A stretch of DNA of 64,000 nt from Branchiostoma floridae (lineage: Eukaryota > Chordata > Leptocardii > Amphioxiformes > Branchiostomatidae). The notes under the pieces were generated by a model. The model did not search any database. It saw only the letters and a list, made by a program, of their open reading frames with translations, and was not told the DNA's origin. The position numbers and the translations under genes are program-made. Below, piece by piece: positions 32,001-56,639 of the stretch (its first letter is position 1; each line of letters begins with the position of its first letter). Where the stretch lies: assembly GCF_000003815.2 (NCBI RefSeq), contig NC_049988.1, forward strand, positions 3,449,971 through 3,513,970, written 5' to 3'.

Positions 32001-35000
32001 TATATCAGCCACTCATTTCTTTATTGAACAAGTTGAAATTTTGCAGAATGGTAAAGGCACATAATTGTGTATCTTCTTTAGGCTTTTACTTAAAGCACTA
32101 CTTTTCGACTCACCCTGATACATGCACATTTTCAAATGCAGGATCGATTAATGTCTAGACTGATTCACATCATACAACTATTACTGACATATTACCTGAG
32201 TGAATGCTGATTAATAATCACTTGATGCCTGCCATTACAACATTCACTATATTGGCCCTATTATATTAAAAGGTAAGCCTACCGTTAGAGTAAGTGCAGG
32301 ACCATTGATAGTCAAACAAGGTAGAGTTGACAATCATGTCGTCTGGATCAAACGAAGAGGAGGCATCTAAGGTCACCATCTTTCCAGCTCCTACAGAACG
32401 GGACGAACCGCCAGCTATCTGTGCCACCAGATCTGAGGCTTCGACAATTAGCCAGGACGACACAGAATCAACGGCCCTGACAGTAGGATTGGTATGGACG
32501 TCAACATGCAAACGCAGCTCAACGGTTCCATACGACAGTGAGTTTCGTGGAATGTTGATAGTTGATTGGAGAGTGTCAATGCTTAGCATCTCCAAGACCT
32601 CCCATGTGTCAGAATCAACAGAATGGTAAAATGTCCAGTTATAGTTCACATAAGCTGAAGTGCTGCAGCTGAACTGCAGTTTAGTAGAAAACAGAAGGGT
32701 GTCTCTCCTGTACACTGCAAAGGGGCTGTTCTGGTTGTTGCTGCCACCAATGATCTGTATGGCCTGAATCTGACACCATGGACCAACTGAAGGTGTTGGT
32801 GGTTGGGGAGTTGGACTCCTGACAACTGGTAATGTAATGTAATAGAAATTGAAAAAGAATTATATTGCATTGAGATCTATGGAAACATTGTTACCTCAAA
32901 GCATGTGGAAAATGAACACTGCAAACTTGTCACAAATTGCAGCTTACTTCAGTAACCTTATGTGATTTTGATGTCACTAACTTAAAAAGACCTACTAAAA
33001 ATAATAGTTGCAGCATCAATAATCCCACTTTAGATATTCAGGTGTTCAATACATTTTTTATAACATCTCGACATAGCATGATATCTTTAAGATTGCAGCT
33101 CTTAGGGCACACTGAAAAATTATAGAGTTGACGTTAATGCATAGATCTGTCTAGTAAATCAAAAACTAAACTCCCAGGCGCCTATGACCCCTTGCATGCG
33201 CGTCTATTTGAGTAATGTGACTTAGGCTTGGGTATTTTCAAGTTGAGCTTCAACTTGATAAAATAATAAACTTGAAAAGGGTCAAAGGACTGGCCGAAAG
33301 ATTGTTTATAGCACTATACTTTGAGAACAGAAAAGGCATATAAGATATTTATAACTCACCAGGTGTTGTTACAGTTGTGTCTGAGGCTGTCAAACTTGCA
33401 ACACTGGTTGTTACATCCAAAAACTCTGTTGTGCTGTGAACATTGACAGTAGAAAACGGACCTGCCTGCTTCTCAGTACTATCACTAGAGAAGTCTTGAC
33501 CGGCGGTACTTTGCAAGGTAATGTCCCCTGTGCTTGCAATGGTACTGTCCATTGAACTTTCTGTTGTGCCCAAATATCTTGTTGAGCTTTCTGTTGTAGC
33601 CAAATGGCTTGTTGACATTTTTGTTGTACCCAAATTACTAGTTGAACTTTTGGCTGCTGTGTCCTTATTCGTTGTCACTTCATCCAAAGGAACTGTGGTA
33701 TCCGCATTGACAATTATGGTAGATTGTTCAACTATGTCGGTCATTGTTTCAGTAGCAATTATGACTGTAGCTCCTCCATCAGCAGAACTCATAGTAACCT
33801 CTTCAACAAAAGTAGATACTTTCAAGCCATCTGTGGTGGCCTGAGCACTGCCTGCATGTGTTGAAAAACAAAGAAATACTTGGTTGAACAAGTTACAGTA
33901 AATGAAGAAACTTTCGCGGTGGTTTAATGTTTGCAGTTTTTGCTGTGGCCACTTCGCCGCAAACTTAAAACCAACGCAAACATTTTTCCATGGCAGTAAG
34001 ACACTACAATGCATGGTGCTACCGCAAACTGCTAAAAGTCCTTTTTCTCGCTACCAAGAAAGTAAATCACCGCAAAGTTAAATGCATTTATAGAAGTTTG
34101 TAAGTCAGCATCAACAACATAGTATCTAAAGTAGCAGATACTGACCGTCATCAATGCTCCATGCTAGATAATCTTGGTAGAAGACATAATATGATACGTT
34201 TTAATTGTTTATGGTTTGTAGACAGCTTCATCAGATTGATGGGCAAAATGCACTCACATATACTAATTCATTGACATCCATCAAAAAGGTCTTTACTTAT
34301 AAGTGCGAACACACAAAGAAAACCAAAAACAGTACCGTACAACCTTGTGAGGTGAATCTCTTTCCTAGAGGTAATCATGAAAGAGAAAAAGGATCATACC
34401 TGCAAAACATTGTGGGTTCTGTGTGGAGTTAGGGTACAGGCTACACCTCAGCTGGGGAGGCCACCCTCCCAGACTGAGGAGTTCGTCCTCACAAGCACCT
34501 CGCACCTCCTCACAGAACTCCTCACACAGCACCCACCGTCTGCCCTCCTCACACGGGGGAAGGAGCACAGAACACAGGAAGGTGCTCCAGGCAGGGTGGC
34601 AGGACAGACTGAAGATTCCTGCCTGTGTCTGGATGTAGTGAGTCAGGTCTGCTTGTACAAAGGCACCAAAGACATTTGGTGAGGAGGTCTGAGTGTAGGG
34701 TAGACTGTTGAGGCACAGGTCTGATGTGATGTCCTCACAGGCAGCTGGTAAGTTTTGAAAATAAAGTTAGAAGCAAAGACTAAATTGTCTTAATGATATT
34801 TCTTACAGGATAGTTGTACTGTTACTTTGGGAATTTTTGTGGCACTTTTAGCTAGCCTTGCAGTTTTCATGGTAACCTCTCAACACATACTCCATTGCAA
34901 CTAATGTTTCAAATGCAAACTCAAAGATGTAGTGAACTATTGCTTTACCAAAAAATCTAAGTATCACAAACATAGTGGACTTTACAATACAATTTAAAAT

Positions 35001-38000
35001 TCAATGTATAGTTCACTGTACACACATACATAACAGAAAAGACGCATTGTAAATACTCACTATTAAAATGATGGAGGCCAAAACAGTAGAGAATGAGTAC
35101 CATATATACACTACAGTTAGGTGTAACATGTACAAAATGTAGACTGTACAAACCTTATGAGAGTGTACTATTATGAAAGCAATAACTGTTATCTACGGTA
35201 CTTTTAAATGTAAGATGTACACACCACAATTCTCTTCATCAGTATCTCCTGGACAGTCACTGATCTTGTCACATACCATCAGGAAGGACAAGCATTTTGA
35301 GGGGTCCGTCGAACACTGGTATGTTTCACAACTTTTCTCAGGATCTAAACATCATTGACAGAAAATAAGCATTGCAGAGTAATGTATTAGCAACTCTTCA
35401 TAAGAGAACCCTTTCTATAAGGGGACAAGATTTCCATTGCATGCATAAGGTGACCAGCATGCTATATGCAACTGTTGTTCAGCACCAAGGACAGACGTGT
35501 CATCACTGTGTGAATGGTGTTCTACACTATTAGAATAGGACAGGTCTACCTGTGTATGGATGGTGTTCATCATCAGGGACAGATGTGTTTACCTGTGTGC
35601 TGATAGTGTTTAGCACCAGGAACAGGTGTGTTTGCTTGTGTGTGGATGGTGTTTCGCACCAAGGATGGGTGTGTTTGCCTGTATAAGGATTGAGTTCAGC
35701 ACCAGGGACAGGTGTGATTACTGTGTGCTGATAGTGTTCAGCACTGGAGACAGGTGTGTTAACCTGTGTGTGGATGGTGTTCAGCACCAGGGACAGGTAT
35801 GCTTGCATGTGTGTGGATGGAGTTCAGCACCAGGGACAGGTGTGTTTGCCTGTATTTGGATGGTGTTCAGCACCAAGGACAGGTAAGTTTGCCTGTATGC
35901 TGATGGTGTTCAGTACCAGTGACTGACGTGTTTGCTTTGTGCTGATAGTTTTCAGGAACAGGTGTGTTTGCTTGCCTGGTGTCAGCACCAGGAACAGGTG
36001 TGTTCACAAGGGCTGGGTACCAGTACGGTGTGCTAGTACAAAACTGTTTTTTTTTGTCGTTGGACCAGTGACCTGAAAAAAAAATAGGGCACCAGATTTT
36101 GGACCATTGGAAAATCAATAGATTATACTTGCAGGGTTTTACGTGTTTCTGGGCTTACCAGTCCAAGAAAAAAGATTGAGGTAGAGGGGAGTTGATAGTA
36201 ATTTTCACCAAGTTTCTACAGTCAAACAAGGTTAACAGAGCCAATCAGTGATTATGAAGATCAGGTTGTAAAATGCCAGTAGAAGTTGTATACTCAATTA
36301 GATTCCTTTGTAGTTAAACTGACCATTGTTTTGAGTATTAATTGTTCACAGGTTTTCACATAAAATCAGATCCTATGGACCTGGACTATACCTGTGCCTG
36401 TTCTGTACCAGTACCCACCCCAAGTGTTCATCAGTCTGTGAATGGTCTTCAACAACAAGGAAGAAGCTATTTACTTGTGTGGTGTTTAGCTACAGCGAAG
36501 GAGTTATTTACTTGGGTGTGTATGGTGTTCAGCACCAAGGACAGGTGTGTTCATCTGTGTGTGGATAGCGTTCAGCACCTGGGACAGGCATCTTAACCTG
36601 TGTGTGGCTGGTGTTCAAAGTCTGGTATAGGTGTCTGTGCAGGGACAGTGTTTGATACAGGGGATATAAGTTATTCCTCTTTAATGTTAATTGTATTTAG
36701 AAAGACAGGTACATGATCATCAAGTGATCAATTCAGACCGTGAATTTCTTTAGTAGGAAACTAAAACTGAAACAAATTCCTTCTTTGGACAAGAACTGTG
36801 ACCAATAAAACATAATACAATCACCACTGAAGCATGCCGGATCCTCATACTGGTGCTGAAACAGACTACAGTTGAGTTGTGGTGGCCATCCACCCCAATC
36901 AGTCAGGTCCAACTGACAGGACCTCTGAACGTCCTCGCAAAACTCCCGGCACAGCCCAGTCCTCCTGGAGTTCTCACACTCAGGGAAGAACACAAAGCAC
37001 AGGAACGTTCCCCACTGTGGATGGCAGGACAGGCTGAAGATATCCGGCTGTGAGTTGATGTAGGGTGTTAGGTGTTCTTGTACAAACGGACCAAACACAT
37101 TCGGTGAGGATGTTCGAGTGTAAGGTAGGATGTTGAGGCACACGTCTGCTTGGATGTCTTCACATTCAGCTAGAAAAACACACACTGACGTCAGTTTAGA
37201 ATTTCTGTTCATGCAGCATTTTAGCACATGTGTCCGTGATGCAAGCAATAACACAACCCCACTGCTAGGACCACTGTCAGAAACCAACAACAACCTGGTG
37301 AACAGATGTTCACATTTAACATAGCAACATGGTATATATAAAAACAACTGTGGACTATTTGAGATTCTTATGGTGTACATGCATATGATCTGATAGCCAC
37401 ATCGGTACAGCCGTGAATCATTATGATATATATATCTGTAAATTTGAATAATTCCATCAGGATGGGACATGCCTGCAAATAACACTGTGAGGAAAATGTG
37501 GTCCCAAATTTGATTGAGGGGGGATACAAGCTTAGTCATATGTTTGATACTGCTTTCCTCTCACTGCAGCGCCACCTAGCAGTGGAAAGGAGAACCAGCC
37601 ATTACTGCTCTGAGGAAACACTGGCAGGAAAATATTTCTGGCAGTGCAACACAGCACTGGCATTATGATACATATATAACTTACCACAACTGGTCTCATC
37701 CTCCTGTTCTGTACAATCCTCCCTCCCATCACAGAGATGGAGGTAGGACACACACTGTCCTGTAGTTGTACACCAGTAGCCTGGACAGCTTTCCTCTTCT
37801 GTCATCCCTGTAACAAATAGACAAGATCATTTTTAGGACAAATCATCTTTGACACACAGTGACTATGGCCAGATCTACAATATGGGGACATATACTGTAT
37901 TAGGGGCCACCTTTTGCATAGCAACCACTTGGCCATTGCGGCCACTTTTTGTCGGTCCCTTAGATTTTTCACCTTGACCTAAGCATTAAGAAATAGTCTA

Positions 38001-41000
38001 TAGCGGCCACCTGTCCAACGCGGCCACATCCACACAATTTCCGCTCCTGTAGATACAGAAACACTGCCATCTTCCTTGGTGAGAATATGTAACTTATTGC
38101 TCAAGGTCAAGTGATCAGAATTTTCTCTATAGTGGCCACCTGTCTATAGTGGTCACATTTTAAAAAATAGGGGCATCCAAATATAGGGTTGTTGGAACAG
38201 GGCTTTTGGAACATAGGAGTGGCAGAATATAGGGGCATCATCAGAACATAGGGGTAACATAGGGATGTTGGAACATAGGGAGGGGCATCAGAACAAATAG
38301 GTGTGTGCAAACAGGTGTCTGAACATAGTCGTGTCAAACCAAAGGGATTTAAAGAACATAGAAGTGTCGGAACTTCAAGGGGGGGGATACAGATAGGGAC
38401 ATTAGAACAAAAGGATTTTGGAACGTAGGGACAACCGAACATAGGGGCACCGGAACATAGGAGTGTTGGAAAAAGTTATACAATATTGTAAAGCACAGCT
38501 GTTCCTCACCGTTAAAACATGAGCCTTCTTGAGATGAGTATGGGAACAGACTACACGACAGGTGAGGCGGCCATCCTCCAAGCTCGGCAAGCTCATCCTG
38601 ACACGCATTCTGAACCTCCTCACAGAACTCCCTACACAGCACCCTCCTCACACCCTCCTCACACTCAGGGTAGAACACAGAACACAGGAACGTGCTCCAC
38701 TGGGGGTGGCAGGACAGACTGAACACTTCAGACTGTGTGGTGATGTAAGCAGCCAACTTGTCTTGTGTGAAGGGGCCAAACGCATTAGGAGATGACGACT
38801 GGACATACGGCAGATTGGCCAAGCAGAAATCTGCTTGTATAGGACTACATGCATCTGAAAGTATGAAATTATAATGGCGACTTTAATCTTAAAAGAAAAT
38901 TGTTGTAAAAGAAAATTTAAGCTTAGTCTCTTTAAGATACGTGTTATCTCACTCTTATTACATGTACATACCTGTGCTACATGTAACATAACTTATGAGA
39001 ATACCTGGTCCAGTGGTTCTTAAGGGCCATTAGTTTTACCATATACACCAATTGTTGGACTTGAAGTTACATGCATTTTGGGACTAATTGACAATGTCAT
39101 ATCATTGTACAGATGACAGATGTACCCGGTAACTAAACATGCATAGAGGTACATTGTATAGAGCCCTCTCTCTGACATACAGTCACGTATCTTGTATTAT
39201 AATAACTGTGGCAGGCTTGTCAGCTGAGACTTTCCGTTGTCATGTCATAGATTTATAGGTTATAGATGACCAGGTTTAGCTTGTTATTTGTGTAATCAGG
39301 TAAATGCATGCTGCTTACTCGTTCTTAGTTATAACATTATGACCTTTGCTCAAGTGCATACCTCAATGTACCAAAACCTAATGTTCTGACACTCCCATGT
39401 TCAGACACCCCTAGGTTCCAACACCCCAACTTTAGGGTTACAGATTACAAAAACAAATTCTAAAAAGAAGTTTTATTTTTTTTTAATTCAGGAGTAAAAG
39501 ATTGTAGGGGTGTCAGAACATTGGGACGTATTGTAACCATACCACACATCCAACCAATGGGAATTCTCAAATACATCCATATGTCCATTTACACATACCA
39601 CAGCTGGCCTCATCCTCAGCACCTGAGCAGTCAGCTGTCCCATTGCAGATGCTGAGGTAGGAAATGCACTCTGGACCAGACGGGCACTTGTATGCAAGAC
39701 AGTCGGTGGCTTCTTCTCTCTCTGGTCCTGAACATAATACAAGTTACTACAGATGTACCTGTCTAGTACTTACTTTTGTAGGGACTCAACTAGAGATGAG
39801 AAAAGGAAGGATAGTAGAGTTTTCTTTTACACATTCAACCAGTTGATATTACCTGCTGACATTTTGATGCCTATGAGATATCTTCCTCAGAGCTTCTAAC
39901 CGGATTTCTGCGTCTCGCCGCTATATGTAGCCGATGTAGGTGGCGCTTTTGCGACAAGAGCACAATCTTAAACATGGCTACGTTTGACCCCCCCCCCCCC
40001 TCGTCAAGGTTTATAACTGCAGTTGACTTCCTTATTCAGCAGAGTGTACAAACGTTTGGAATTTTGTTCTTGCCACAAAAGCACCATCTCAATCAGCTTT
40101 ATATAACGATGAGAAGCAGAACTCCAGTTGAAAGTTCTGAGGAAGATCTCTGATACTCACTAGGAATCAAAATGTCAGCAGGTAATATTAACTGTTGTGT
40201 AAAAGAAAACCCTAATACTATCCTAAGACTTACCAACCTGATGAAAATATTTTTGGCGAGAAAAGGAAGTTTTTTTGCGGCAGTGTAATTATACACTAGA
40301 AACTCGTGGTTCCAGCGTCATGAAATTGCAGTGCTTCAGGGATTTGACCATGAAAAGAAAAAAATAAAACCACTAGACTCATTTTAAGACATACAGTATT
40401 CGTTAGTCACAGAAACAACTGAACAGTTCTGAATACTTTTATTTTTTGGTGAAAACTTTGTACCTTCAAGCTGAACAGATTATGCCTATTTTTGGTGACA
40501 CCACAAGGGTGGAGCCCATTTTTATCAGAAAGTATTTGGTGAAAAATATTACGACATACTACATCTTAAATAACAATTGCAGACTGAGTAATTATTCAAG
40601 TTGGCTCAGAATCATTATTCTTGCTATTAAGTGTTTTCTTTGGAAAGATATCAGTTTAAAAATGATTCAGGTCAGGATCATACCTGCAAAACATTGTGGA
40701 TTCTGTGTTGAGTTTGGGTACAGGCTACACCTCAGCTGGGGTGGCCACCCTCCCAGACTGACGAGTTCCTCCTCACAAGCTTCTCGCACTTCCTCACAAA
40801 ACTCCTCACACAGCACTGACCGTCGGCCCTCCTCACACGGGGGGAGGAGCACAGAACACAGGAACTTGCTCCACTGGGGGTGGCAGGACAGACTAAAGAT
40901 TTCTGACTGTGTCTGAATGTAGTGAACCAGGTCCTCTTGTACAAAGTCTCCGAAGACATTTGGTGAGGAGGTCTGTGTGTAAGGTAGACTGTCGAGGCAC

Positions 41001-44000
41001 AGGTCTGATGTGATGTCCTCACAGGCGGCTGGCACAAGAAGAACAAAACATATATCTATTATCATAATATATTAACTCGAAAGTTTATCTGCGTTTGTAG
41101 AAGTCATTTTGAATCAAGTTTTGTTGTTTGTTTTGCATACCTGGTAAACTGCCTTAAGGCGTAACACACCAGGTTTGTGCATAACAATACAAGCTGCATA
41201 ATCCGGACAGATCTATTTGATCCACTCACACCAGGAAGGTCCCTTACACATAATGCCTTGCGTCTCCCAGTAGGTAATGGGATGTGCAGAAAGGTATATG
41301 ACGTTTACCACAGTCATCTTCATCCTCCCGTGCACTGCAGCTGCCGTTCCCATCACAGACATGTAGATAGGACAGGCACTGTCCACCACTAGGGCACTGG
41401 TACGTCACACAGTCATGACTGGACTTGTCATCTAGCACACCTGCGTTTGAAGTGACAGTCTGGTCAATAGGACTTATAAGGACTCTAAACGATGTAACTG
41501 TATCTCTGTTATATACTTAGTCTGACCCTTGCCTCTTCCCTCATGACCTCGATGAAAAGCGGCCTAAAGGCCGATTTGAGCTTTCATGAATAAATAAAGA
41601 TTCAAACAAACATAGAATATTTCCCATTAACTCTACTCTAGTCTACTTACTCAATTTCTGCTTCAATGAAACATACAGGGGCTGACTGCCACATTGTTGT
41701 CTTTAATTTGACTTCCAATGAACCATAGCTCAAGCAAGTGGGGTAGTGTGGCATAACTGCAGCATGTGTGGTTACAGGTCCTGGGTTCAAATTCTATAAA
41801 TTGAAAAGAGTCTGTAGGAGTCCTTAACAGGGTGAGTGGTTCGATACGGCTATTTCGACTAAGTCTAGCGGTTAGGACACGACTTGAGTCTAAACGATCA
41901 AGAATATCTCGACAAGGATGCATCCGATGGGCTGCGGTTTTCACCTTTCAATAGGGCACAATGAGACCTTTCTGATGGTACAAAGATCGCCCTGCCAGAA
42001 CTTGTACCCTGGCATGGAATCACGTTATTAGGGAATCAGCCAAACCAGGGATTAAGGCTATTACGACTAAGTCTAGCGGTTAGGACACTACTTTAGTCTA
42101 CACGATCAAGAATATCTCGACAAGAAGCATCCGATGGGCTGTGGTTTTCATCTTTCAATAGGGCACAATGAGACCTTTCAAATGCTATAAAATTTGCCCG
42201 CCCGCAACTTGAACCCTGGCCTGGAATCGCGTTATTGAGGTATCAACCCACCCCCGACTAACGGCTACGGCTAGCGGCTAGACCACGACTAGAGTACACA
42301 CGATCAAGAATATCTCCAGGAGGATGCATCCGATTGGACTGCGGTTTTCACCTTTCAATATGGCACAATGAGACCTTTCTCATGATATAAAATTTGCCCT
42401 GCCGCAACTCGAACCATGGCCTGGAATCGCGTTATTAAGGTATCACCCCACACCCGACTTACGGCTATTACGTCTAAGTCTAGCGGTTAGGACACGACTT
42501 GAGTACACACGATCAAGTATATCTCGACAAGGATGCATCCGATCGGACTGCGGTTGCCACCTGTCAATAGGGCACAATGAGACCTTTTTAATGATAAAAA
42601 GTTTGCCCGCCCGCAACTTGAACCCTGGGCCTGGAATCGCGTTATTACGATATCACCCCACCCCGGGCTTACTGCTATTACCTCTAAGTCTAGCGGTTAG
42701 GACACGACTTGAGTACACACGATCATCAAGAATATCTCGACAAGGATGCATCCGATTGGACTGAGGTTTTCACCTGTCGATAGGAACAAAAAGACCTTTC
42801 TAATGATATTAAATTTGCCCGGCCGCAACTTGAAACCTGGCCTGTAATTGCGTCATTAAGGCATCACCCCACCCCTGGCTTACTGCTATTACGTCTAAGT
42901 CTAGCGGTTAGGACACGACTAGAGTACACACAATCAAAAATATCTCGACAAGGATGCATCCTATTGCACTGCGGTTTTCACTTTTCAATAGAAAACAAAA
43001 AGACATTTCTAATGATATTAGATTTGCCCAGCCGCAACTTGAACCCTGCCTGGAATTGCGTTATTAAGGTATCACCCCATCCCGGGCTTACGGCTATTAC
43101 GTCTAAGTCTAGCGGCTAGACCACGACAAGAGTACACACAACCAAAAATATCTTGACAAGGATGCATCCGATTGGACTGCGGTTTTCACCTTTCAATAGG
43201 GCACAATGAGACCTTTTTACTGATATGAAGTTTGTCCGACCGCAACTTGAACACTGGCCAGGAATCGCGTTATTAAGGTATCACCCCAACCCCGGGCTTA
43301 CGGCTGTTACGTCTAAGTCTAGCGGTTAGGCCACGACTTGAGTCTACACGATCAAGAATAACTCGACAAGGATGCATCAGTTTGGACTGCGGTTTTCACC
43401 ATTTAATATGGTACAATGAGCTCTTTCTATTGCTATAAAATTTGCCCGGCTGAAACTTGAACCCTGGCCTGGAATCGCGTTATTGAGGTATCATACCACC
43501 ACCGACTTACGACTTCAGGTAGCGGCTCAACCACGACTAGAGTACACACGATCAACAATATCTCCACAAGGATGCATCCGATTGGACTGCGGTTTTCACC
43601 TTTCAATAGGGCACAACGAGACCTTTCTAATGATACAAAGTTTGCACGCCCACAATTTGAAACCTGGCCTGTAATTGCGTTATTAAGCTATCACCCCACC
43701 CCGGGCTTACTGCTATTTCGTGTAAGTCTAGTGGCTAGACCATGACTAGAGTACACACAGTCAAAAATATCTCGACAAGGATGCATCCGATTGCACTGCG
43801 GTTTTGACTTTGCAATAGGCAACAAAAATACCTTTCTAATGATATTAAATTTGCCCGGCCTCAACTTGAAGCTTAGCCTGGAATCGCGTTATTAAGGCAT
43901 CACCTCATCCCGGGCTTATGGCTATTACGTCTAAGTCTAGCGGTTAGGACACGACTTGAGTACACACGATCAAGTATATCTCAACAAGGATGCATCCGAT

Positions 44001-47000
44001 TGGACTGCGGTTTTCACCTGTCAATAGGGCACAATGAGACCTTTTTGATGATATAAAGTTTGCCCAGCCGCAACTTGAACCCTGCCTGGAATCGCGTTAT
44101 TAAGGTATCACCCCACCCCGGGCTTCCGGCTATTACGTCTAAATCTAGCGGTTAGGACACGACTTGAGTACACACGATCAAGTATATCTCGACAAGGATG
44201 CATCCGATTGGACTGCGGTCTTCACATGTCAATAGGGAACAAAAAGACCTTTCTAATGATATTAAATCTGCCCGGCCGCAATGTGGAGCTTAGCCTGGAA
44301 TCGCGTTATCAAGGTATCATCCCACCCTCGACTTACGCTTGCGGCAAGCGGCTAGACTACGACAAGAGTACACACGATCAAGAATAACTCGACAAGGATG
44401 CATCCGATTGGACTGCGGATTTCACCTTTCAATAGGGCACAATGAGACCTTTCTAATGATATAAAGTTTGCCCAGCCGCAACTTCAACCCTGGCCTGGAA
44501 TAGCGTTATTATGGTATCACCCCACCCCCGACTTACGGCTACGGCTAGCTGCTAGACCACGACTAGAGTACAAACGTTCAAGAATATCTTGACAAGGATG
44601 CATCCGATTGGACTGCGGTTGTCACCTTTCAATAGGGCACAATGAGACCTTTCTAATGATATAAAGTTCGCCCGGCCGCATCTTGAACCCTAGCCTGGAA
44701 TGGCGTTATTAAGGTATCACCCCACCCCCGACTTACGGCTACGGCTAGCTGCTAGACCACGACTAGGGTACACACGTTCAAGAATATCTTAACAAGGATT
44801 CATCCGATTGGACTGCGGTTGTCATCTTTCTATAGGGCACAATGAGACCATTCTAATGATAAAAAGTTTGCCCGCTCGCAACATGAACTCTGGCCTGTAA
44901 TCGCGTTACTAAGGTATCACCCCACCCCGGGCTTACTGCTATTACCTCTAAGTCTAGCGGTTAGGACACGACTTGAGTACACACGACCAAGTATATCTCG
45001 ACAAGGATGCATCCGATTGGACTGCGGTTGCCACCTGTCAATAGGGCACAATAAGACCTTTTTAATGATAAAAAGTTTGCCCGCCCGCAACTTGAACCCT
45101 GGGCCTGGAATCGCGTTATTACGATATCACCCCACCCCGGGCTTACTGCTATTACGTCTAAGTCTAGCGGTTAGGACACGACTTGAGTACACACGATCAT
45201 CAAGAATATCTCGACAAGGATGCATCCGATTGGACTGCGGTTGCCAACTGTCAATAGGGTGCAATAAGACCTTTGTAATGATATTAAATTTGCCCGGCCG
45301 CAACTTGAAACCTGGCCTGTAATTGCGTCATTAAGGTATCACCCCACCCCTGGCTTACTGCTATTACGTCTAAGTCTAGCGGCTAGACCACGACTAGAGT
45401 ACACACAATCAAAAATATCTCGACAAGGATGCATCCGATTGCACTGCGGTTTTGACTTTGCAATAGGCAACAAAAATACCTTTCTAATGATATTAAATTT
45501 GCCCGGCCTCAACTTGAAGCTTAGCCTGGAATCGCGTTATTAAGGCATCACCTCACCCCGGGCTTATGGCTATTACGTCTACGTCTAGCGGTTAGGACAC
45601 CACTTGAGTACACACGATCAAGAATATCTCGACAAGGATGCATCCGATTGGACTGCGGTTTTCACCTGTCAATAGGGCACAATAAGACCTTTTTGATGAT
45701 ATAAAGTTTGCCCAGCCGCAACTTGAACCCTGCCTGGAATCGCGTTATTAAGGTATCACCCCACCCCGGGCTTCCGGCTATTACGTCTAAGTCTAGCGGT
45801 TAGGACACGACTTGAGTACACACGATCAAGTATATCTCGACAAGGATGCATCCGATTGGACTGCGGTCTTCACATGTCAATAGGGAACAAAAAGACCTTT
45901 CTAATGATATTAAATCTGCCCGGCCGCAATGTGAAGCTTAGCCTGGAATCGCGTTATCAAGGTATCATCCCACCCTCGACTTACGCTTGCGGCAAGCGGG
46001 TAGACTACGACAAGAGTACACACGATCAAGAATATATCGACAAGAATGCATCCGATTGGACTGCGGACTTCACCTTTCAATAGGGCACAATGAGACCTTT
46101 CTAATGATATAAAGTTCGCCCGGCCACAACTTGAACCCTAGCCTGGAATGGCGTTATTAAGGTATCACCCCACCCCCGACTTACGGCTACGGCTAGCTGC
46201 TAGACCACGACTAGAGTACAAACGTTCAAGAATATCTTGACAAGGATGCATCCGATTGGACTGCGGTTGTCACCTTTCAATAGGGCACAATGAGACCTTT
46301 CTAATGATATAAAGTTCGCCCGGCCGCATCTTGAACTCTAGCCTGGAATGGCGTTATTTTGGTATCACCCCACCCCCGACTTACGGCTACGGCTAGCTGC
46401 TAGACCACGACTAGGGTACACACGTTCAAGAATATATCGACAAGGATACATCCGATTGAACTGCGGTTTTCACCTTTCATTAGGGCACAATGAGACCTTT
46501 CTACTGATATAAAGTTCACCCGACCGCATCTCGAACCCTGGCCTGGAATCGCGTTATTAAGGTATCACCCCACGCCCGACTAACGGCTACGGCTAGCGGC
46601 TAGACTACAACTTGAGTCTCCACGATCAAGAATATCTCGACAAGGATGCATCAGATTGGCATGGACTGCGGTTGTCACCTTTCAAAAGGGCACAATGAGA
46701 CCTTTCTAATGCTATAAAGTTTACCTGCCCGCAACTTGAACCCTGGGCCAGGAATTGCGTTATTAAGGTATCACCCCAGCCCGGGCTTCCGGCTATTACG
46801 TCTAAGTCTAGCGGTTCGGACACGACTTGAGTACACACGATCGAGTATATCTCGACAAGGATGCATCCGATTGGACTGAGGTTTTCACCTGTCGATAGGA
46901 ACAAAAAGACCTTTCTAATGATATTAAATTTGCCCGGCCGCAACTTGAAACCTGGCCTGTAATTGCGTCATTAAGGCATCACCCCACCCCTGGCTTACTG

Positions 47001-50000
47001 CTATTACGTCTAAGTCTAGCGGTTAGGACACGACTAGAGTACACACAATCAAAAATATCTCGACAAGGATGCATCCTATTGCACTGCGGTTTTCACTTTT
47101 CAATAGAAAACAAAAAGACATTTCTAATGATATTAGATTTGCCCAGCCGCAACTTGAACCCTGCCTGGAATTGCGTTATTAAGGTATCACCCCATCCCGG
47201 GCTTACGGCTATTACGTCTAAGTCTAGCGGCTAGACCACGACAAGAGTACACACAACCAAAAATATCTTGACAAGGATGCATCCGATTGGACTGCGGTTT
47301 TCACCTTTCAATAGGGCACAATGAGACCTTTTTACTGATATGAAGTTTGTCCGACCGCAACTTGAACACTGGCCAGGAATCGCGTTATTAAGGTATCACC
47401 CCAACCCCGGGCTTACGGCTGTTACGTCTAAGTCTAGCGGTTAGGCCACGACTTGAGTCTACACGATCAAGAATAACTCGACAAGGATGCATCAGTTTGG
47501 ACTGCGGTTTTCACCATTTAATATGGTACAATGAGCTCTTTCTATTGCTATAAAATTTGCCCGGCTGAAACTTGAACCCTGGCCTGGAATCGCGTTATTG
47601 AGGTATCATACCACCACCGAATTTACGGCTACGGCTAGCGGCTAGACTACGACTTGAGTCTCCACGATCAAGAATATCTTGACAAGGATGCATCCGATTG
47701 GACTGCGGTTTTCACCTTTCAATAGGGCACAATGGAACCTTTCTAATGATATAAAGTTCGCCCGGCCGCATCTTGAACCCTGGCCTGGAATGGCGTTATT
47801 AAGGTATCACCCCACCCCCGACTTACGGCTACGGCTAGCTGCTAGACTACGACTTGAGTACACACGTTCAAGAATATCTTGACAAGGATGCATCCGATTG
47901 GACTGCGGTTTTCACCTTTCAATAGGGCACAATGGAACCTTTCTAATGATATAAAGTTCGCCCGGCCGCATCTTGAACCCTGGCCTGGAATGGCGTTATT
48001 AAGGTATCACCCCACCCCCGACTTACGGCTACGGCTAGCTGCTAGACTACGACTTGAGTACACACGTTCAAGAATATCTTGACAAGGATGCATCCGATTG
48101 GACTGCGGTTGTCACCTTTCTATAGGGCACAATGAGACCTTTTTAATGATAAAAAGTTTGCCCGCCCGCAACTTGAACCCTGGGCCTGGAATCGCGTTAT
48201 TAAGATATCACCCCACCCCGGGCTTACTGCTATTACCTCTAAGTCTAGCGGTTAGGACACGACTTGAGTACACACGATCAAGAATATCTCGACAAGGATG
48301 CATCCGATTGGACTGCGGTTTTCACCTGTCAATAGGGCACAATAAGACCTTTCAAATGATAAAGTTTCATAAAGTTTCCCGGCCGCAACTTGAACCCTGG
48401 CCTGGAATCGTGCTATTAAGGTATCACCCCACCCCCGACCTACGGCTACGGATAGTTGCTAGACCACGACTTGAGTACACACGATCAAGAATATCTCGAC
48501 AAGGATGCATACGGTTGGACTCCGGTTTTCATATTTCAATAGGGCACAATGTGAACTTTCAAATGATATAAAGTCTGCCCGGCCGCAACTTGAACCCTGG
48601 CCTGGAATCTCGTTATTAGAGAATCACCCCACCCTCGGCTTACGTTATTCAAAACCTACTGTCCAATGGCCATACCTGGTGCAATTATTGCCACCACGAG
48701 TACTACCACGGTCACCGGAGTTAGTGCCAAATGGCAGCTACACCAAACACTTGTGATTTAGCCCTGTCTATTGCAAGCTCTTTGCAAAAAAATTAAGCCT
48801 CTGGCTGATTTTGAGTCCGGGGTTAAATGAATCAATTTACTGCAGCAGCAGATGATAGAATAGATTGAATTACCAGCATGAAAAATAGCATCTCACCTTG
48901 GAAGCATGTAATGTTGTCAGACTCAGGTGGATAAAGTCGACACAGCAACGGTTCAGGCCACTGTCCGTAACCCAGTTCCACCAACGTGGCCTCACAAGCA
49001 GACTTCACCTCCTCGCAAAACTCCCGACACAGCGGAATCCGATTTCTAGCGCTGCACTCAGGGAAGTACACAGAGCACAAGAAGGTTCCCCACTGCGGAT
49101 GGCAGGAGAGACTGAAGATGTCCGGCTGAGCATTGATGTAAGGTGTTAGGTCTTCTTGTACAAACGGTCCAAACACGTTCGGTGAGGACGTCCGAGTGTA
49201 AGGTAGGATGTCGAGGCACACGTCTGCCTGGATGTCCTCACATTCAGCTGAAACAACACACATTGACACACATTATCATATATCCAGACTGGTAAGGAGG
49301 TTTAGAAAGCAGGGAGAGTACTTAGCAATCCGACCCAACCAGCAAGATAAATAGCGGCCGGACGAACAAAACCTGGCTCTTGTCTATGGGCTACTATATT
49401 ATGTAACAAGCGAATGCGTCCTCTGGAGTCGTCACGGCTAGGTATCGGACAATGTCTATATGATAATAACGTTAATGACCCGCTTTCCTTCGGTGTAAAC
49501 CTTGGGGCGTGTCATGAACCCTAGATGAACTATAAGCATGCATCGAAATTACAGTATGCACCCTCGATTGAAGGAAAGTCACAGACAAATCTGTGGGACT
49601 CAAATAAACTAGGGGTTATTTTTGGTTTCATATCCTAAGGCATACAGTCCAATATAATAGCCACAACTGGGGCAATTACTGTCGTACAAGGTCACTATGT
49701 GCTGTACACAGGCTACCATTACAGATCCTTTTGTATATCATAAGATCCTCACAATTATGCACCTGGTTGTAAAGAGAGCCTAGTCAGACAATTCAACGAG
49801 AGAAAATGACTGTTATGGTAATACAACTTGCTATATACTCACCACAGGTGCCCTCATCTTCACCCCCTACACAGGTATCTACACCATCACAGACCTGTAG
49901 GAATGGCAGACACTGTCCACTGGGACACTCCCATAGAGTACAGTCTGAAGTTTCCACGCCTGGAACAAAACGTACAACATTGAAGAAGACTTTTAAGCTA

Positions 50001-50657
50001 CTAAAATAGCTTCCTGACCAACTGAACTGTCCATACGTNNNNNNNNNNNNNNNNNNNNNNNNNNNNNNNNNNNNNNNNNNNNNNNNNNNNNNNNNNNNNN
50101 NNNNNNNNNNNNNNNNNNNNNNNNNNNNNNNNNNNNNNCTAGGCTATTGCCTTGGTTAGATTTACTGTTAAGTTTGCAGATTTTATCTAAGACCTGATCG
50201 ATGGGAAAATGTATACCAAATAATACTGGAGGAAGAATAGTTTTGGCTTCTGCTTAGAGTATGAACATCTTGTGCATTACCATCAAGTCATGTTAGTTAT
50301 CTTAACCTAACATGTTAAATAAAAAATTCACGTCTATTTTGCTTCATCCTCCAAGCAAATATTAAAATTTTGGTCACAAACATCAAAATGTTAAACACAT
50401 AACAGTTATGTACAAGGTACATTGGTACAATGTGTAACAAGTTTTTGCAAAAGGTGATTCCGGTTTGTAAGAATGTTTATCTTATCTTTTTCTAATTTCT
50501 CAACATTTCCAAGTGGCTAGTAGCTAGCATATTTCATATAAGAGGAAGAAAGTCTTAACAAAGCAGATTTCAAACAATAATACAGTAACATACCTTGTTG
50601 AAGAGAAAATTCTGTAAAAAGCAGGGTAAAGAAGAGCCATGGCAAAATGTTTTCCAT
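5168..50657 (-). CDS. Polycystin-1-family receptor/channel with five LDLa-FZ modules (44 coding exons)
   Basis: Coding exons in transcript order: 50657-50594, 49959-49843, 49247-48897, 41440-41309, 41034-40684, 39727-39599, 38854-38510, 37807-37685, 37169-36825, 35344-35225, 34744-34400, 33851-33360, 32786-32283, 31671-31485, 30798-30585, 29844-29682, 29247-29165, 28843-28721, 28072-27878, 27468-27337, 26727-26619, 26077-25992, 24953-24705, 23859-23650, 21010-20746, 20050-19902, 19525-19289, 18739-18638, 17830-17652, 17298-17233, 16502-16386, 15676-15490, 15102-14982, 14329-14210, 13753-13566, 12617-12531, 11664-11410, 10779-10623, 9785-9633, 8910-8723, 8099-7937, 7303-7129, 6561-6250, 5516-5168. 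All have AG acceptors and GT donors, phases agree, and no stop occurs before 5168 (about 2,912 aa). REJ, GPS, PLAT and polycystin channel regions place it in the PKD1/PKDREJ family, which forms membrane receptor-channel complexes, often ciliary or on sperm. The LDLa-FZ ectodomain is what is unusual. Exon edges come from splice signals and phase, not transcripts. Confidence 0.93.
5877..5990 (-). mobile_element. LINE 3' end with AATAAATCAAATCAAAT tail
   Basis: On the minus strand, GCCCTTGATAATAGCCTCTG and CTAATTGGGTAGCCCTGACT are followed by ATGGCCGAATAAATCAAATC, a LINE-type terminus with short tandem tail. It lies in the last intron of the polycystin gene. Confidence 0.45.
6892..6991. other. 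Assembly gap (100 N)
   Basis: Exactly 100 N, probably a placeholder of unknown true length. It lies in the intron between exons 42 and 43. Confidence 0.98.
6992..7116 (+). mobile_element. Repeat with TTGAACT-type terminus, copy next to N gap
   Basis: It contains ATAACGTGACGTCACGAC, a segment with CATTCCTTGGCAAAGACTGG, AAAATTTGGGTGAGTTCAAT and the end ATTACAGTTAAACAAGTTCA. It matches the reverse complement of 24984-25180. It begins exactly at the edge of the gap at 6892-6991. Confidence 0.65.
8723..11664 (-). CDS. Exons 37-40: S1 helix and polycystin TOP extracellular domain
   Basis: Exons 11664-11410, 10779-10623, 9785-9633 and 8910-8723 (residues about 2330-2580). It opens with an acidic EDEDDDDE run, then S1 (EVVFYFMYLWVVLSIGYG). 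The TOP (polycystin) loop has YLVGVARLRQ, a cysteine pair (VQCTVHPM and LNCNVMY), WGTYSGGGYVVELLG and the NNWVDETTSAVLAEF block. These match the polycystin domain that lines the mouth of PKD2-type channels. Confidence 0.93.
11000..11300 (+). mobile_element. Second LINE 3' fragment
   Basis: The frame at 11009-11080 reads LPTVKMSSSALSFRKLL and then a stop, again like a LINE ORF2 end. It is followed by UTR-like sequence and CCCTGTATAAAGAAAACAG with AATAAATAAATAG. Degenerate and non-autonomous. Confidence 0.5.
11943..12150 (+). mobile_element. 5'-truncated LINE 3' end (CR1/jockey-like)
   Basis: One frame at 11943-12032 reads FPTTIVEWNLLSPSTVG then SLDSFKECL and a stop, the usual C-terminus of CR1/jockey-like reverse-transcriptase ORFs. 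The 3' tail ends in GATACAGATACAGATG short repeats. It lies in the intron between exons 36 and 37. Confidence 0.65.
12531..15676 (-). CDS. Exons 32-36: polycystin-1 transmembrane helices 2-5
   Basis: Exons 15676-15490, 15102-14982, 14329-14210, 13753-13566 and 12617-12531 (residues about 2096-2329). The landmark KHLWFGV followed by FTRCQR is typical of the PLAT-TM2 junction. Hydrophobic helices are CCLSLLLCTMFVNIMFYG, ALIVLPVNILLVQLF, WWFLYIGWFLVFATC, and the FFTSFIMDLLF and ILAAMVALIMK pair. Exon 34 is a small cytoplasmic Glu/Lys-rich segment. Donors after exons 33 and 36 (GTTCGT, GTTGGC) are weak, but phase and homology require them. Confidence 0.9.
16386..18739 (-). CDS. Exons 28-31: PLAT/LH2 domain
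   Basis: Exons 18739-18638, 17830-17652, 17298-17233 and 16502-16386 (residues about 1941-2095). Landmarks are YRYLVTTYTGTKQHASTTAK, VAVVVTGEK, the YIQIWHDDTGRDPSW segment, FLDQVVINDM and YIFVCRRWL. PLAT is the cytoplasmic lipid- and protein-binding domain after helix 1 in polycystin-1 proteins. The short 66-nt exon 30 is confirmed by phase and sequence. The donor after exon 28 is GTCTGT. Confidence 0.94.
16681..16890. mobile_element. 210-bp MITE with ACTGTAAATGCA inverted ends
   Basis: It begins ACTGTAAATGCA and ends TGCATTTACAGT. Inside, blocks of the form TTCGCGGTGGTTTTAA repeat in both orientations. The flanks read ACTT on each side, a possible 4-bp target-site duplication. It lies in a PLAT intron. 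No coding capacity. Confidence 0.75.
19289..20050 (-). CDS. Exons 26-27: GPS autoproteolysis site and first transmembrane helix
   Basis: Exons 20050-19902 and 19525-19289. The GPS has CLYFD, a WKDLGCK segment and then HCQCTHLTAFG. Cleavage is expected between Leu1878 and Thr1879. All GPS cysteines and the H-L/T triad are kept, so self-cleavage is predicted. The helix VVITCSVVLGIYIVAMIW follows within about 35 residues. The protein should mature into a large N-terminal fragment bound non-covalently to the membrane fragment. Confidence 0.95.
20746..28072 (-). CDS. Exons 19-25: REJ tail and GAIN-like region
   Basis: Exons 28072-27878, 27468-27337, 26727-26619, 26077-25992, 24953-24705, 23859-23650 and 21010-20746 code residues about 1397-1811. 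The region is helical at first (QTVSSVRQVAAAF, VNVLQAASLTADQAK) and then beta-rich (VPGQEPLVINL, LEFDDPIDISLERP). This is the usual layout of the GAIN domain before a GPS. Exon 23 must end at 24705 (GAG/GTAACT), because the open frame past it runs into a stop and would skip the NPYNYAETSS segment of exon 24. Confidence 0.85.
21885..22300. repeat. Diverged tandem duplication, ~235-bp unit
   Basis: The units at 21885-22085 and 22120-22300 both run from TGGTAAAC(C)TTCTG through GAAAATTG, GTAAATCAA and ACCGACGCCAT. It lies in the large intron between exons 24 and 25. Confidence 0.55.
22845..22925. promoter_or_regulatory. Promoter-like cluster inside the polycystin gene
   Basis: GCCGCCATTTTG (YY1-like, 22886-22897), TGACGTCG (CRE-like, 22899-22906) and CTCCAATCAGG (CCAAT, 22917-22921) lie within about 40 bp in a CpG-rich part of the exon 24/25 intron. 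This is a pattern of housekeeping-type promoters. No transcript start can be shown from sequence. Confidence 0.3.
24002..24175 (+). mobile_element. Non-LTR retrotransposon C-terminal fragment
   Basis: A 52-codon frame includes KRRVGRPSSTLKKLIEDETG and LLSAMKDRQFWRTNF. This GRP-T-K-L/DTG/M-DR--W pattern is frequent at LINE ORF2 ends. A GATGAT tail follows the stop at 24158-24160. It lies in the intron between exons 23 and 24. Confidence 0.55.
24984..25362. mobile_element. Inverted-repeat element, TTGAACTAGTTTA ends
   Basis: The left end TTGAACTAGTTTAGCTGTAA with GACTCACCCAAATTTTCAGC is mirrored, less perfectly, at 25297-25362 (AAATTTGGGTGG, then ACAGTTAAACTAGTTCAA). The inner palindrome TGACGTCACGTTAT is shared with the copy at 6992. 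No coding capacity. Confidence 0.6.
26110..26190 (-). mobile_element. Short LINE-like 3' end with (ACAATA) tail
   Basis: The minus strand reads CAGCCCCTGGCTGCCAAGAG, then GTGGGCCCACACAATAACAA with further AATAAC units. This looks like a retroelement terminus with a microsatellite tail. Weak evidence. Confidence 0.35.
27119..27139. repeat. Poly-G run
   Basis: 21 consecutive G. The following about 130 bases look like low-quality sequence. Confidence 0.95.
28721..32786 (-). CDS. Exons 13-18: REJ (receptor for egg jelly) module
   Basis: Exons 32786-32283, 31671-31485, 30798-30585, 29844-29682, 29247-29165 and 28843-28721 code residues about 972-1396. Family landmarks in order are GPWCQIQ, SDLVAQIAGGSSRS, TLDASSSFDPDD, YQWSCT, CDLKTNPSNRLAL, a YRWTLQ motif and the FSDPDTPLIYEF segment. 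REJ modules are extracellular immunoglobulin/FnIII-like folds in PKD1 and PKDREJ proteins. For exon 13 an AG at 32820-32819 would break the frame, while the AG at 32788-32787 keeps it, so the exon start is 32786. Confidence 0.92.
31891..31909. repeat. Poly-G run
   Basis: 19 consecutive G in an intron of the REJ region. Confidence 0.95.
33360..33851 (-). CDS. Exon 12: Ser/Thr-rich mucin-like stalk
   Basis: 164 codons (residues about 808-971), dominated by Ser, Thr and acidic residues, without cysteines. It contains an imperfect ~10-residue tandem repeat around STSHLATTES, coded by a ~30-bp DNA repeat at about 33550-33650. I infer an O-glycosylated spacer that holds the FZ/LDLa array away from the REJ module. 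Confidence 0.85.
33894..34091. mobile_element. Diverged copy of the ACTGTAAATGCA MITE
   Basis: Intronic sequence with the start ACAGTAAATG, inner TTTCGCGGTGGTTTAATG and CACCGCAAAG, and the end AAATGCATTTATAG. It shares length and inner blocks with 16681-16890. Confidence 0.6.
34400..34744 (-). CDS. Exon 11: Frizzled module FZ5
   Basis: 115 codons and ten cysteines. SLPYTQTSSPNVFGAF, CEEFCEEVRGAC and the end NPQCFAG match FZ2 closely. It is the last cysteine-rich module before the stalk. Confidence 0.93.
35225..35344 (-). CDS. Exon 10: LDLa module 5
   Basis: 40 codons with six cysteines: SCETYQC, MVCDKISDC and GDTDEENC. Its acidic motif is the most canonical of the five. Phase 1 at both ends. 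Confidence 0.92.
35460..36015. repeat. Minisatellite, ~43-bp unit
   Basis: About a dozen imperfect units of GATGGTGTTCAGCACCAGGG followed by ACAGGTGTGTTTGCCTGTGT. It lies in the intron between FZ4 and LDLa5, and related units reappear at about 36470-36650. Confidence 0.85.
36470..36660. repeat. Second block of the GTTCAGCACC minisatellite
   Basis: Three to four degenerate units with TGTTCAGCACCAAGGACAGG, in the same intron as the block at 35460-36015. Confidence 0.7.
36825..37169 (-). CDS. Exon 9: Frizzled module FZ4
   Basis: 115 codons and ten cysteines. It begins ECEDIQADVCLNILPY, nearly the same as FZ1, with which it also shares short flanking intron sequence. Phase 1 at both ends. Confidence 0.93.
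37685..37807 (-). CDS. Exon 8: LDLa module 4
   Basis: 41 codons with six cysteines: SCPGYWC, QCVSYLHLCDGREDC and EQEDETSC. This is a good calcium-site match. The donor is TGTG/GTAAGT. Confidence 0.92.
37905..38160. mobile_element. Truncated copy of the GCGGCCAC-type element
   Basis: Located in the intron between FZ3 and LDLa4. It shares TTTTTGTCGGTCCCTT, TCTATAGCGGCCACCTGTCC and AACGCGGCCAC with the reverse complement of the element at 4071-4648. The terminal repeats are missing. Confidence 0.65.
38165..38475. repeat. Degenerate minisatellite around GAACATAGGGG
   Basis: Repeated short units of the form GGAACATAGGAGTGTC. Reverse-complement fragments (TGTTCAGACACCCCTAGG) occur at about 39365-39430 and a forward one at about 39505-39530. 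Confidence 0.7.
38510..38854 (-). CDS. Exon 7: Frizzled module FZ3
   Basis: 115 codons and ten cysteines. The segment NLPYVQSSSPNAFGPF and the helix CREFCEEVQNAC are clear. It is the most divergent of the five FZ modules and has no obvious partner copy. The donor is AACG/GTGAGG. Confidence 0.93.
39599..39727 (-). CDS. Exon 6: LDLa module 3
   Basis: 43 codons with six cysteines, including SICNGTADC and GAEDEASC. The correct frame differs from the longest open frame over this stretch. Splice signals and phase 1 at both ends select the LDLa frame. Confidence 0.88.
40684..41034 (-). CDS. Exon 5: Frizzled module FZ2
   Basis: 117 codons and ten cysteines, with SLPYTQTSSPNVFGDF and CEEFCEEVREAC segments. 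It is almost identical to FZ5 in protein, and the DNA similarity extends across the donor into the intron. Confidence 0.93.
41309..41440 (-). CDS. Exon 4: LDLa module 2
   Basis: 44 codons with six cysteines. The core is HVCDGNGSC and the end is SAREDEDDC. The donor is TGTG/GTAAAC. Phase 1 at both ends. The upstream intron (41441-48896) carries the satellite array. Confidence 0.9.
41490..41612 (+). mobile_element. LINE 3' terminus
   Basis: AAAGCGGCCTAAAGGCCGAT with the end CATGAATAAATAAAGATTCA is a UTR-like stem followed by an AATAAATAAA tail. It sits just upstream of the LDLa2 exon on the minus strand. Confidence 0.4.
41725..41850 (+). mobile_element. SINE head, 5' part of a copy split by the satellite array
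   Basis: GTGTGGCATAACTGCAGCAT, the B-box-like TCCTGGGTTCAAATTC, and AGTCCTTAACAGGGTGAGTG match the first half of the SINE family. The match stops where the satellite begins. Confidence 0.55.
41855..48645. repeat. Satellite array, ~206-bp unit, 33 copies, with higher-order structure
   Basis: I counted 33 instances of the landmark ATGCATC (or variant) at about 41917, 42128, 42323, 42533 and so on to 48505, spaced 199-213 bp. Each unit also carries TCTAGCGGTTAGGACACGAC, TCAATAGGGCACAATGAGAC, and CCTGGAATCGCGTTATTAAG, with substitutions. Groups of units recur with near identity (for example 42746-43480 with 46860-47600, 43779-44900 with 45427-46550), and 47679-47878 repeats exactly at 47879-48078. 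The array fills the intron between FZ1 and LDLa2. Open frames inside it are chance. Confidence 0.95.
48645..48800 (+). mobile_element. SINE tail, 3' part of the same split copy
   Basis: TATTCAAAACCTACTGTCCA, the segment ATGGCCATACCTGGTGC and CTTGTGATTTAGCCCTGTC with TTGCAAGCTCTTTGC match the second half of the SINE at 52600-53300, resuming where the left part ended. Confidence 0.55.
48897..49247 (-). CDS. Exon 3: Frizzled cysteine-rich module FZ1
   Basis: A whole FZ domain (117 codons) on one exon. All ten FZ cysteines are present, with the LPYTRTSSPNVFG segment, the SLSCHPQW segment, and the CREFCEEVKSAC helix. Phase 1 at both ends. It has one extra residue pair before the WPEPLLC segment relative to FZ4. 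It is most like FZ4. Confidence 0.93.
49843..49959 (-). CDS. Exon 2: LDL-receptor class A module 1
   Basis: About 39 codons with six cysteines in LDLa spacing, a QVCDGVDTC core and an acidic GEDEGTC end that would bind calcium. It is phase 1 at both ends. The acidic motif is less canonical (GGEDE in place of SDGSDE), so calcium binding may be weaker. Confidence 0.88.
50039..50138. other. Assembly gap (100 N)
   Basis: Exactly 100 N, in the intron between the signal-peptide exon and LDLa1. Phase fits without extra sequence, but a phase 1-1 module exon hidden here would also fit. Confidence 0.98.
50594..50657 (-). CDS. Polycystin-like gene, exon 1: start codon and signal peptide
   Basis: The ATG at 50657-50655 opens a 21-codon stretch starting MENILPWLFFTLLFTEF, a short hydrophobic secretory signal, and ends at a clean GTATGT donor in phase 1. 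An in-frame TGA lies four codons upstream, which supports this start. The phase joins directly to the first LDLa exon across the intron that holds the N gap, so no missing exon is required. Confidence 0.85.

Positions 50658-52173: not shown

Positions 52174-56639
<4,466 letters not shown>

Follow-up and report, generated by a model that had tools for sequence, protein, structure and literature searches.

A candidate polycystin-1-class receptor-channel with five LDLa-Frizzled pairs in the lancelet Branchiostoma floridae

The stretch of the Branchiostoma floridae genome analysed here, 64,000 nucleotides of contig NC_049988.1 (C10:3449971-3513970, hereafter the window), carries on its minus strand a polycystin gene model whose predicted ectodomain is built from LDLa and Frizzled-type (FZ) modules. 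The model has 44 exons in a single open frame of 2,963 residues, with the stop at 5168 and with AG and GT at each inner exon border. From the N-terminus it encodes a signal peptide, five consecutive LDLa-FZ pairs, a stalk, a REJ domain, a GPS, a first membrane span, a PLAT domain, spans 2-6, the polycystin domain and spans 7-11. In a Pfam search of the whole model, REJ (1e-93), Fz (1.9e-92, in five stretches), Polycystin_dom (2.7e-43), PKD_channel (5.8e-39), PLAT (7.6e-20), LDLa (1.4e-12) and GPS (6.4e-07) all scored above cut-off, and every family for which a sequence-only reading of this DNA had proposed such a search (FZ, LDLa, REJ, GPS, PLAT and PKD_channel) was thereby matched. LRR, WSC, PKD-repeat, C-type-lectin and protease domains had no match in the final model with E up to 0.01.

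The N-terminal part lies where that reading had placed it, the signal-peptide exon spanning 50657-50594 and the last of the five LDLa-FZ pairs reaching to 34400 (coordinates of the gene are all on the minus strand). This first exon holds the start codon and a signal-peptide-like sequence (MENILPWLFFTLLFTEFSLQQ) and ends in phase 1 before the first LDLa module. It is followed by LDLa1 (49843..49959), FZ1 (48897..49247), LDLa2 (41309..41440), FZ2 (40684..41028), LDLa3 (39599..39727), FZ3 (38510..38854), LDLa4 (37685..37807), FZ4 (36825..37169), LDLa5 (35225..35344) and FZ5 (34400..34744). All ten module exons start and end in phase 1, and therefore any module could be copied or lost without a change of frame. 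Scored exon by exon against Pfam cut-offs of 32.1 bits for Fz and 24.1 bits for LDLa, the five FZ exons are all above threshold (77.8, 75.7, 75.7, 71.1 and 70.7 bits from FZ1 to FZ5). LDLa is matched in its five exons as well, above cut-off in LDLa1, LDLa3 and LDLa4 (25.2, 29.8 and 28.4 bits) and below it in LDLa2 and LDLa5 (20.9 and 20.6 bits). Each FZ has 10 cysteines and each LDLa six. At the acidic calcium-ligand positions, which we take from LDL-receptor work, LDLa4 and LDLa5 keep four of four and LDLa1, LDLa2 and LDLa3 three of four. FZ2 is of the Frizzled cysteine-rich domain (CRD) type both by sequence and by predicted fold; the fold was modelled for this one of the five FZ and compared with PDB structures by VIA-align on Foldseek's list.

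A stalk exon in phase 1-1 (33360..33851), 39% serine plus threonine, joins FZ5 to REJ in the splice model. The REJ domain (29165..32825; exons 32825-32283, 31671-31485, 30798-30585, 29844-29682 and 29247-29165) is matched over positions 4-451 of 452 and is colinear with a related locus on C17, described below. Between the end of the REJ match and the GPS the splice model places nine exons (19902..28843), presumably GAIN-like from their position. The GPS motif (CQCTHL/TAFG) precedes the first membrane span (19289..19525 for both), and the residues after it, from the TAFG past the cut site onwards, align with human polycystin-1 (PC1). PLAT follows the first span (16386..18739; exons 18739-18638, 17830-17652, 17298-17233 and the start of 16502-16386); it occupies residues 1968-2082, covers positions 1-116 of 117 and was aligned to polycystin-1 and 5-lipoxygenase. 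Spans 2-6 with their loops (11410..15724; exons 15724-15490, 15102-14982, 14329-14210, 13825-13566, 12617-12531 and 11664-11410) are placed by hydropathy, the splice model and homology to the C17 locus. Next come the polycystin (TOP) domain (8723..10779; exons 10779-10623, 9785-9633 and 8910-8723) and channel spans 7-11 with the C-terminal tail to the stop (5168..8099; exons 8099-7937, 7303-7129, 6561-6250 and 5516-5168), which match polycystin-2 (PC2) by phmmer at 2.5e-54. This entire part from stalk to channel (33851-5168) lies outside the interval of the sequence-only reading.

Hydropathy gives 11 peaks after the GPS, and one extra peak, at residue 1745, in the extracellular part. Together with the PC1 alignment after the GPS, the PLAT domain and the channel, the 11 predicted spans support the polycystin-1-class receptor-channel anatomy that had been proposed for this protein. 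With its GPS, PLAT and REJ the model departs from the six-span polycystin-2 family, which has none of these. The LRR, WSC and PKD repeats that would mark a vertebrate PKD1 orthologue are among the domains unmatched above, as is a corin-type trypsin-like domain. REJ itself is missing from hPKD1L3 and hence is not a strict requirement of the PKD1 family (PMC1934368).

A scorer of splice sites and codons, run on the minus strand, supplied the exons and single ones were then set by hand, so that the final 44-exon set is hand-made, with a few borders altered relative to the automatic chain. Splice phases are compatible along the whole chain, which had been built to fit; an open frame in a chain chosen and edited for openness argues weakly for one gene. 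Evidence independent of the hand-edited chain comes from the domain matches. PLAT and polycystin-domain scores are higher in the final exon set than in the first model, which supports the added exons. Exons of the automatic chain at 46888-46725 (inside a 200-bp satellite) and 35743-35550 (inside a 43-bp minisatellite) were dropped, as were those at 36072-35976 and 11266-11230; in each case the flanking exons are in phase without them. A homology-weighted chain broke at 24585, the tblastn extension having run beyond the donor at 24705, and this donor was retained because the C17 locus shows two phase 0-0 exons there. The continuous frame claimed by the sequence-only reading is recovered, at 2,963 residues in our model instead of the claimed 2,912; small exons are uncertain. 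Two 100-N assembly gaps fall in introns of the gene, at 50039-50138 and 6892-6991, and further N-terminal exons could be hidden in the former.

The LDLa-FZ array grew by duplication inside the gene, because the window FZ are far closer to each other than to FZ elsewhere in the genome: FZ2 is 60-89% identical to the other four and at most 41% identical to the rest of the genome among the matches listed. Protein identity is 89.5% for FZ2/FZ5 and 68.4% for FZ1/FZ4, with the remaining eight pairs at 58-65%. Since FZ1-FZ4 and FZ2-FZ5 are the nearest pairs, there is a hint that a block of three LDLa-FZ pairs may have been doubled and one pair then lost. Nonsynonymous divergence (dN) is 0.062 in FZ2/FZ5 and 0.25 in FZ1/FZ4, against a synonymous divergence (dS) of 0.27 and 0.70 respectively, values from which we infer that the FZ copies have been held under constraint. 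Similarity between FZ2 and FZ5 ends about 10 bases past the exon, a pattern that would fit exon-limited gene conversion or old copying. One 37-base flank match links FZ2 and FZ4; the other FZ matches lie in the exon or within about 20 bases of it, and the ten array introns gave no matches among themselves at 1e-5. Most of the FZ1-LDLa2 intron is a satellite (41845-48644) of 200-bp units in 33 copies with 84% matches. A minisatellite with a 43-bp unit occurs within the gene at 35549-35935 and 36516-36617, and a 40-bp array outside the gene (57257-57568) resembles it by eye.

The window polycystin is not alone. In the searched assembly (513,431,437 bases, 431 contigs), REJ-GPS exons are preceded on their 5′ side by same-strand FZ exons at three further loci, one of them, on C17, also with PLAT and channel; FZ-REJ genes are thus found at four loci and channel-bearing FZ polycystins at two. 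From REJ via PLAT to the channel (78.5 bits), the C17 locus (1.65-1.70 Mb) is colinear with the window. Like the window gene it combines FZ, LDLa, REJ, a GPS-like piece, PLAT and channel, but it has one clear FZ (52.8 bits) and one weak second FZ (17.6 bits, below cut-off), one LDLa (29.4 bits) and a C-type lectin piece (23.6 bits). Two genes at C3:5.43-5.56 Mb differ from the window gene in that their FZ is split across two exons, which precede the REJ and GPS exons on the 5′ side; a membrane-span exon follows 3′ of the GPS. At the scored C3 locus, two FZ pieces exceed the cut-off (50.0 and 46.6 bits) and another FZ piece (30.6 bits) and a second-half exon (15.4 bits) fall below it; Sushi, vWA and EGF stand alongside FZ, and REJ reaches 70.0 bits. 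The C3:5.4-5.6 Mb loci were dropped as full polycystins, PLAT and channel having gone unmatched in the parts read there, and are counted as FZ-REJ loci only.

The same region of C3 (5.43-5.59 Mb) is a tandem cluster of three REJ loci, with predicted heads of Sushi, vWA and EGF modules and FZ in two; a membrane-span exon is repeated several times in tandem 3′ of its GPS exons, and stop codons occur in some of the copies. A long FZ array on C4 (10182001-10192000), in which two exons make up each FZ, belongs to a multi-FZ gene outside this family. It was rejected as an FZ-polycystin, with no REJ match nearby in the genome REJ search, and the exons after the array at 10.19 Mb we take to be EGF-, thyroglobulin-, NIDO-, AMOP- and VWD-like. 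FZ arrays at C3:2.0, C3:11.8 and C3:12.9, on C11 and C13 and on small contigs were left out of this reading. With the best 150 of 400 candidates scored, PKD_channel has at least 158 matches in the genome with E up to 0.001; some of these are exons of one gene, and near matches are grouped on C3, C10, C15, C17 and C19. By these counts polycystins seem much expanded in the genome, and because their heads are also shuffled on C3 and C17 the surprise of an FZ polycystin is somewhat lowered.

Among known proteins, human PC1 shares with the window protein the REJ domain, the GPS, a PLAT domain after span 1, 11 spans, the polycystin domain and the TAFG stalk. Its head consists of LRR, WSC, C-type lectin and PKD repeats, where the window protein has five LDLa-FZ pairs instead. 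PC1 also holds one LDL-A motif (PMC10487028), which the PC1 module list of the sequence-only reading had left out. Sea urchin SpREJ proteins are likewise PKD1-family members with variable ectodomains, REJ, GPS and up to 11 spans, and PLAT is present in 5 of 10; their modules differ, being C-type lectin, EGF, SUEL, WSC and PKD repeats, and the terms LDL and frizzled are absent from the main text of the paper that describes them (PMC1934368). The word frizzled is also absent from the main text of a zebrafish family paper (PMC5318412). In open PubMed Central, no title or abstract start among the matches listed names a polycystin with Frizzled domains. The sequence-only reading knew of no polycystin with this ectodomain; we take the protein as a member of the polycystin-1 family with a new head, and LDLa as such is not new in the family. 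Corin also combines FZ and LDLa modules but is a type II membrane protease without REJ, GPS or channel, and in the window protein no protease domain was matched. Frizzled receptors and sFRPs have the CRD sequence and fold in common with the window FZ (the fold for FZ2 only) but carry a single CRD, on a G-protein-coupled receptor or a secreted protein, whereas the window protein would carry five on a channel. Automatic annotation has probably already produced gene models for this locus.

We moderately favour the reading that one gene encodes a polycystin-1-class receptor-channel with five LDLa-FZ pairs as ligand-binding head and with PC1-like gating. A single transcript would run from the signal peptide through the channel. 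The FZ array would bind lipid-modified Wnts or other hydrophobic ligands at several sites at once, with the LDLa modules as calcium-stabilised spacers. After cleavage of the GPS between L and T, ligand or tension would pull off the N-terminal fragment, and the exposed stalk starting with TAFG would act as a tethered agonist of a cation channel. As the acidic ring of its own filter is lost, the protein would most likely form this channel as a heteromer together with a PKD2-like subunit. The mechanism would be the one reported for human PC1 and Wnt9B, FZ domains taking over from the LRR: Wnt9B binds the PC1 LRR, long exposure raises PC1/PC2 calcium permeability, a cleavage-resistant PC1 mutant shows no Wnt9B effect, and a stalk peptide serves as tethered agonist (PMC12513491). 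If true, a polycystin with five Frizzled-type CRDs would be an independent instance of Wnt-receptor modules becoming attached to this GPS-channel unit, and would offer a clean system for ligand-gated polycystin activation, an open question. The four FZ-REJ loci of this one genome, two with a channel found, also illustrate how readily the family exchanges its head.

The five FZ modules suggest, but do not prove, that such channels may sense Wnt-like signals directly. That this cephalochordate fusion of tandem Frizzled CRDs to a polycystin is in fact a Wnt- or lipid-morphogen-gated ion channel seems to us rather doubtful; it would give a direct multivalent path from a Wnt-like ligand to a membrane current, without Frizzled or Dishevelled. 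For the gamete-surface role also raised by the sequence-only reading we found nothing that bears on it, and REJ domains occur family-wide in PKD1 proteins (PMC1934368).

The N-terminus is the least certain part of the model, because the signal-peptide exon has the poorest coding score of all exons (-5.3) and the assembly gap at 50039-50138 separates it from LDLa1. The points that weigh against our reading touch the related loci, the ligand, the pore and the unity of the gene. At the related loci, the GPS pieces of C17 (18.9 bits) and of the scored C3 locus (19.4 bits) are below cut-off. Both C17 FZ (L013:2064-5447) seem interrupted in frame when three frames are read by eye, for which decay, a missed intron, polymorphism and assembly error are indistinguishable. 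Neither PLAT nor channel was matched in those stretches of the C3 loci that were read (tblastn, window queries, E up to 1, which could miss diverged or more distant exons), nor is there a channel match at C3:5.43-5.56 Mb among the genome PKD_channel matches listed.

As to the ligand, FZ2 is 24-32% identical to solved Frizzled CRDs. It is possible, although we give it clearly less weight than the receptor reading, that the array of this one gene is an adhesive or matrix-binding head for proteins, sterols or other lipids and no Wnt receptor. Smoothened CRDs have the same fold and, by their structure titles, were solved with sterols, and MuSK binds proteins. The C3 locus combines FZ with Sushi, vWA and EGF, like other shuffled ectodomains of this genome, and FZ exons also occur in the non-polycystin gene on C4.

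As to the pore, we consider it unlikely that the protein conducts alone, as a homotetrameric ligand-gated calcium channel. By phmmer its channel is closer to PC2 than to the other two polycystins compared (187.8 bits, against 121.8 for PC1 and 78.1 for PKD1L3), and in S6 the PC2 residue N674 is kept and the gate residue L677 is replaced by I, but the gate residue N681 is replaced by T (numbering counted from 641-LGD-643). The PC2 filter R638-I-I-L641-G-D643 aligns to N-V-G-L-G-M in the window protein and to N-I-Q-L-G-E at C17, so that R638 becomes N and D643 becomes M; human PC1 has L-R-L where the window protein has L-G-M (PMC6832002). In PC2, R638C alters selectivity and calcium permeability, and D643 is believed essential for selectivity and conductance; the data of the same paper, however, give D643 a negative effect on permeation, D643A still conducting sodium and being less blocked by divalent cations (PMC11630642). 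With both filter charges lost, a PC1-like heteromer subunit or a monovalent current would be favoured over a plain calcium channel. Calcium entry through the protein's own pore, as envisaged by the sequence-only reading, is accordingly made doubtful by the N and M found at these two positions.

As to the unity of the gene, it is very unlikely that a modelling accident joined two adjacent genes into one frame, the first for a secreted LDLa-FZ protein that would serve as Wnt decoy and the second, 3′ of it, for an ordinary REJ-GPS-channel polycystin. Such a reading could point to the stop that read-through of the FZ5 donor meets within 11 further residues, to AATAAA-type motifs in the intron between FZ5 and stalk, to a signal-like ATG at 33016, and to a lancelet chordin gene model with a documented false PKD_channel fusion (PMC6071037). 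The ATG is likely a chance occurrence, since three such ATGs occur in 2.4 kb. One gene is favoured because FZ stands 5′ of REJ at four genome loci, on the same strand and at 1.7-10.2 kb; the weak second FZ of C17 lies about 1 kb from REJ, and the splice phases agree throughout, albeit in a chain built to fit. The genome searches gave at least 145 FZ matches (best 150 of 230 candidates scored) and 91 REJ matches. Four of 55 FZ clusters are 1.7-10.2 kb 5′ of a same-strand REJ cluster, where 0.05 would be expected within 20 kb under uniform placement, a rough figure that ignores gene clustering, two of the four loci being tandem neighbours. In a reduced list (46 of 145 FZ and 34 of 91 REJ matches), no FZ lies on the 3′ side of REJ or on the other strand within 20 kb; at 50 kb there are four such FZ-REJ pairs, all of them formed by one FZ pair with the gene that follows it in the C3 tandem cluster.

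Just upstream of the polycystin gene, also on the minus strand, two NUDIX-domain exons at 52177-54364 (30.3 bits, and 20.1 bits, below cut-off) probably belong to an isopentenyl-diphosphate isomerase. The end of this NUDIX gene at about 52.2 kb limits how far the polycystin gene can extend on its 5′ side.
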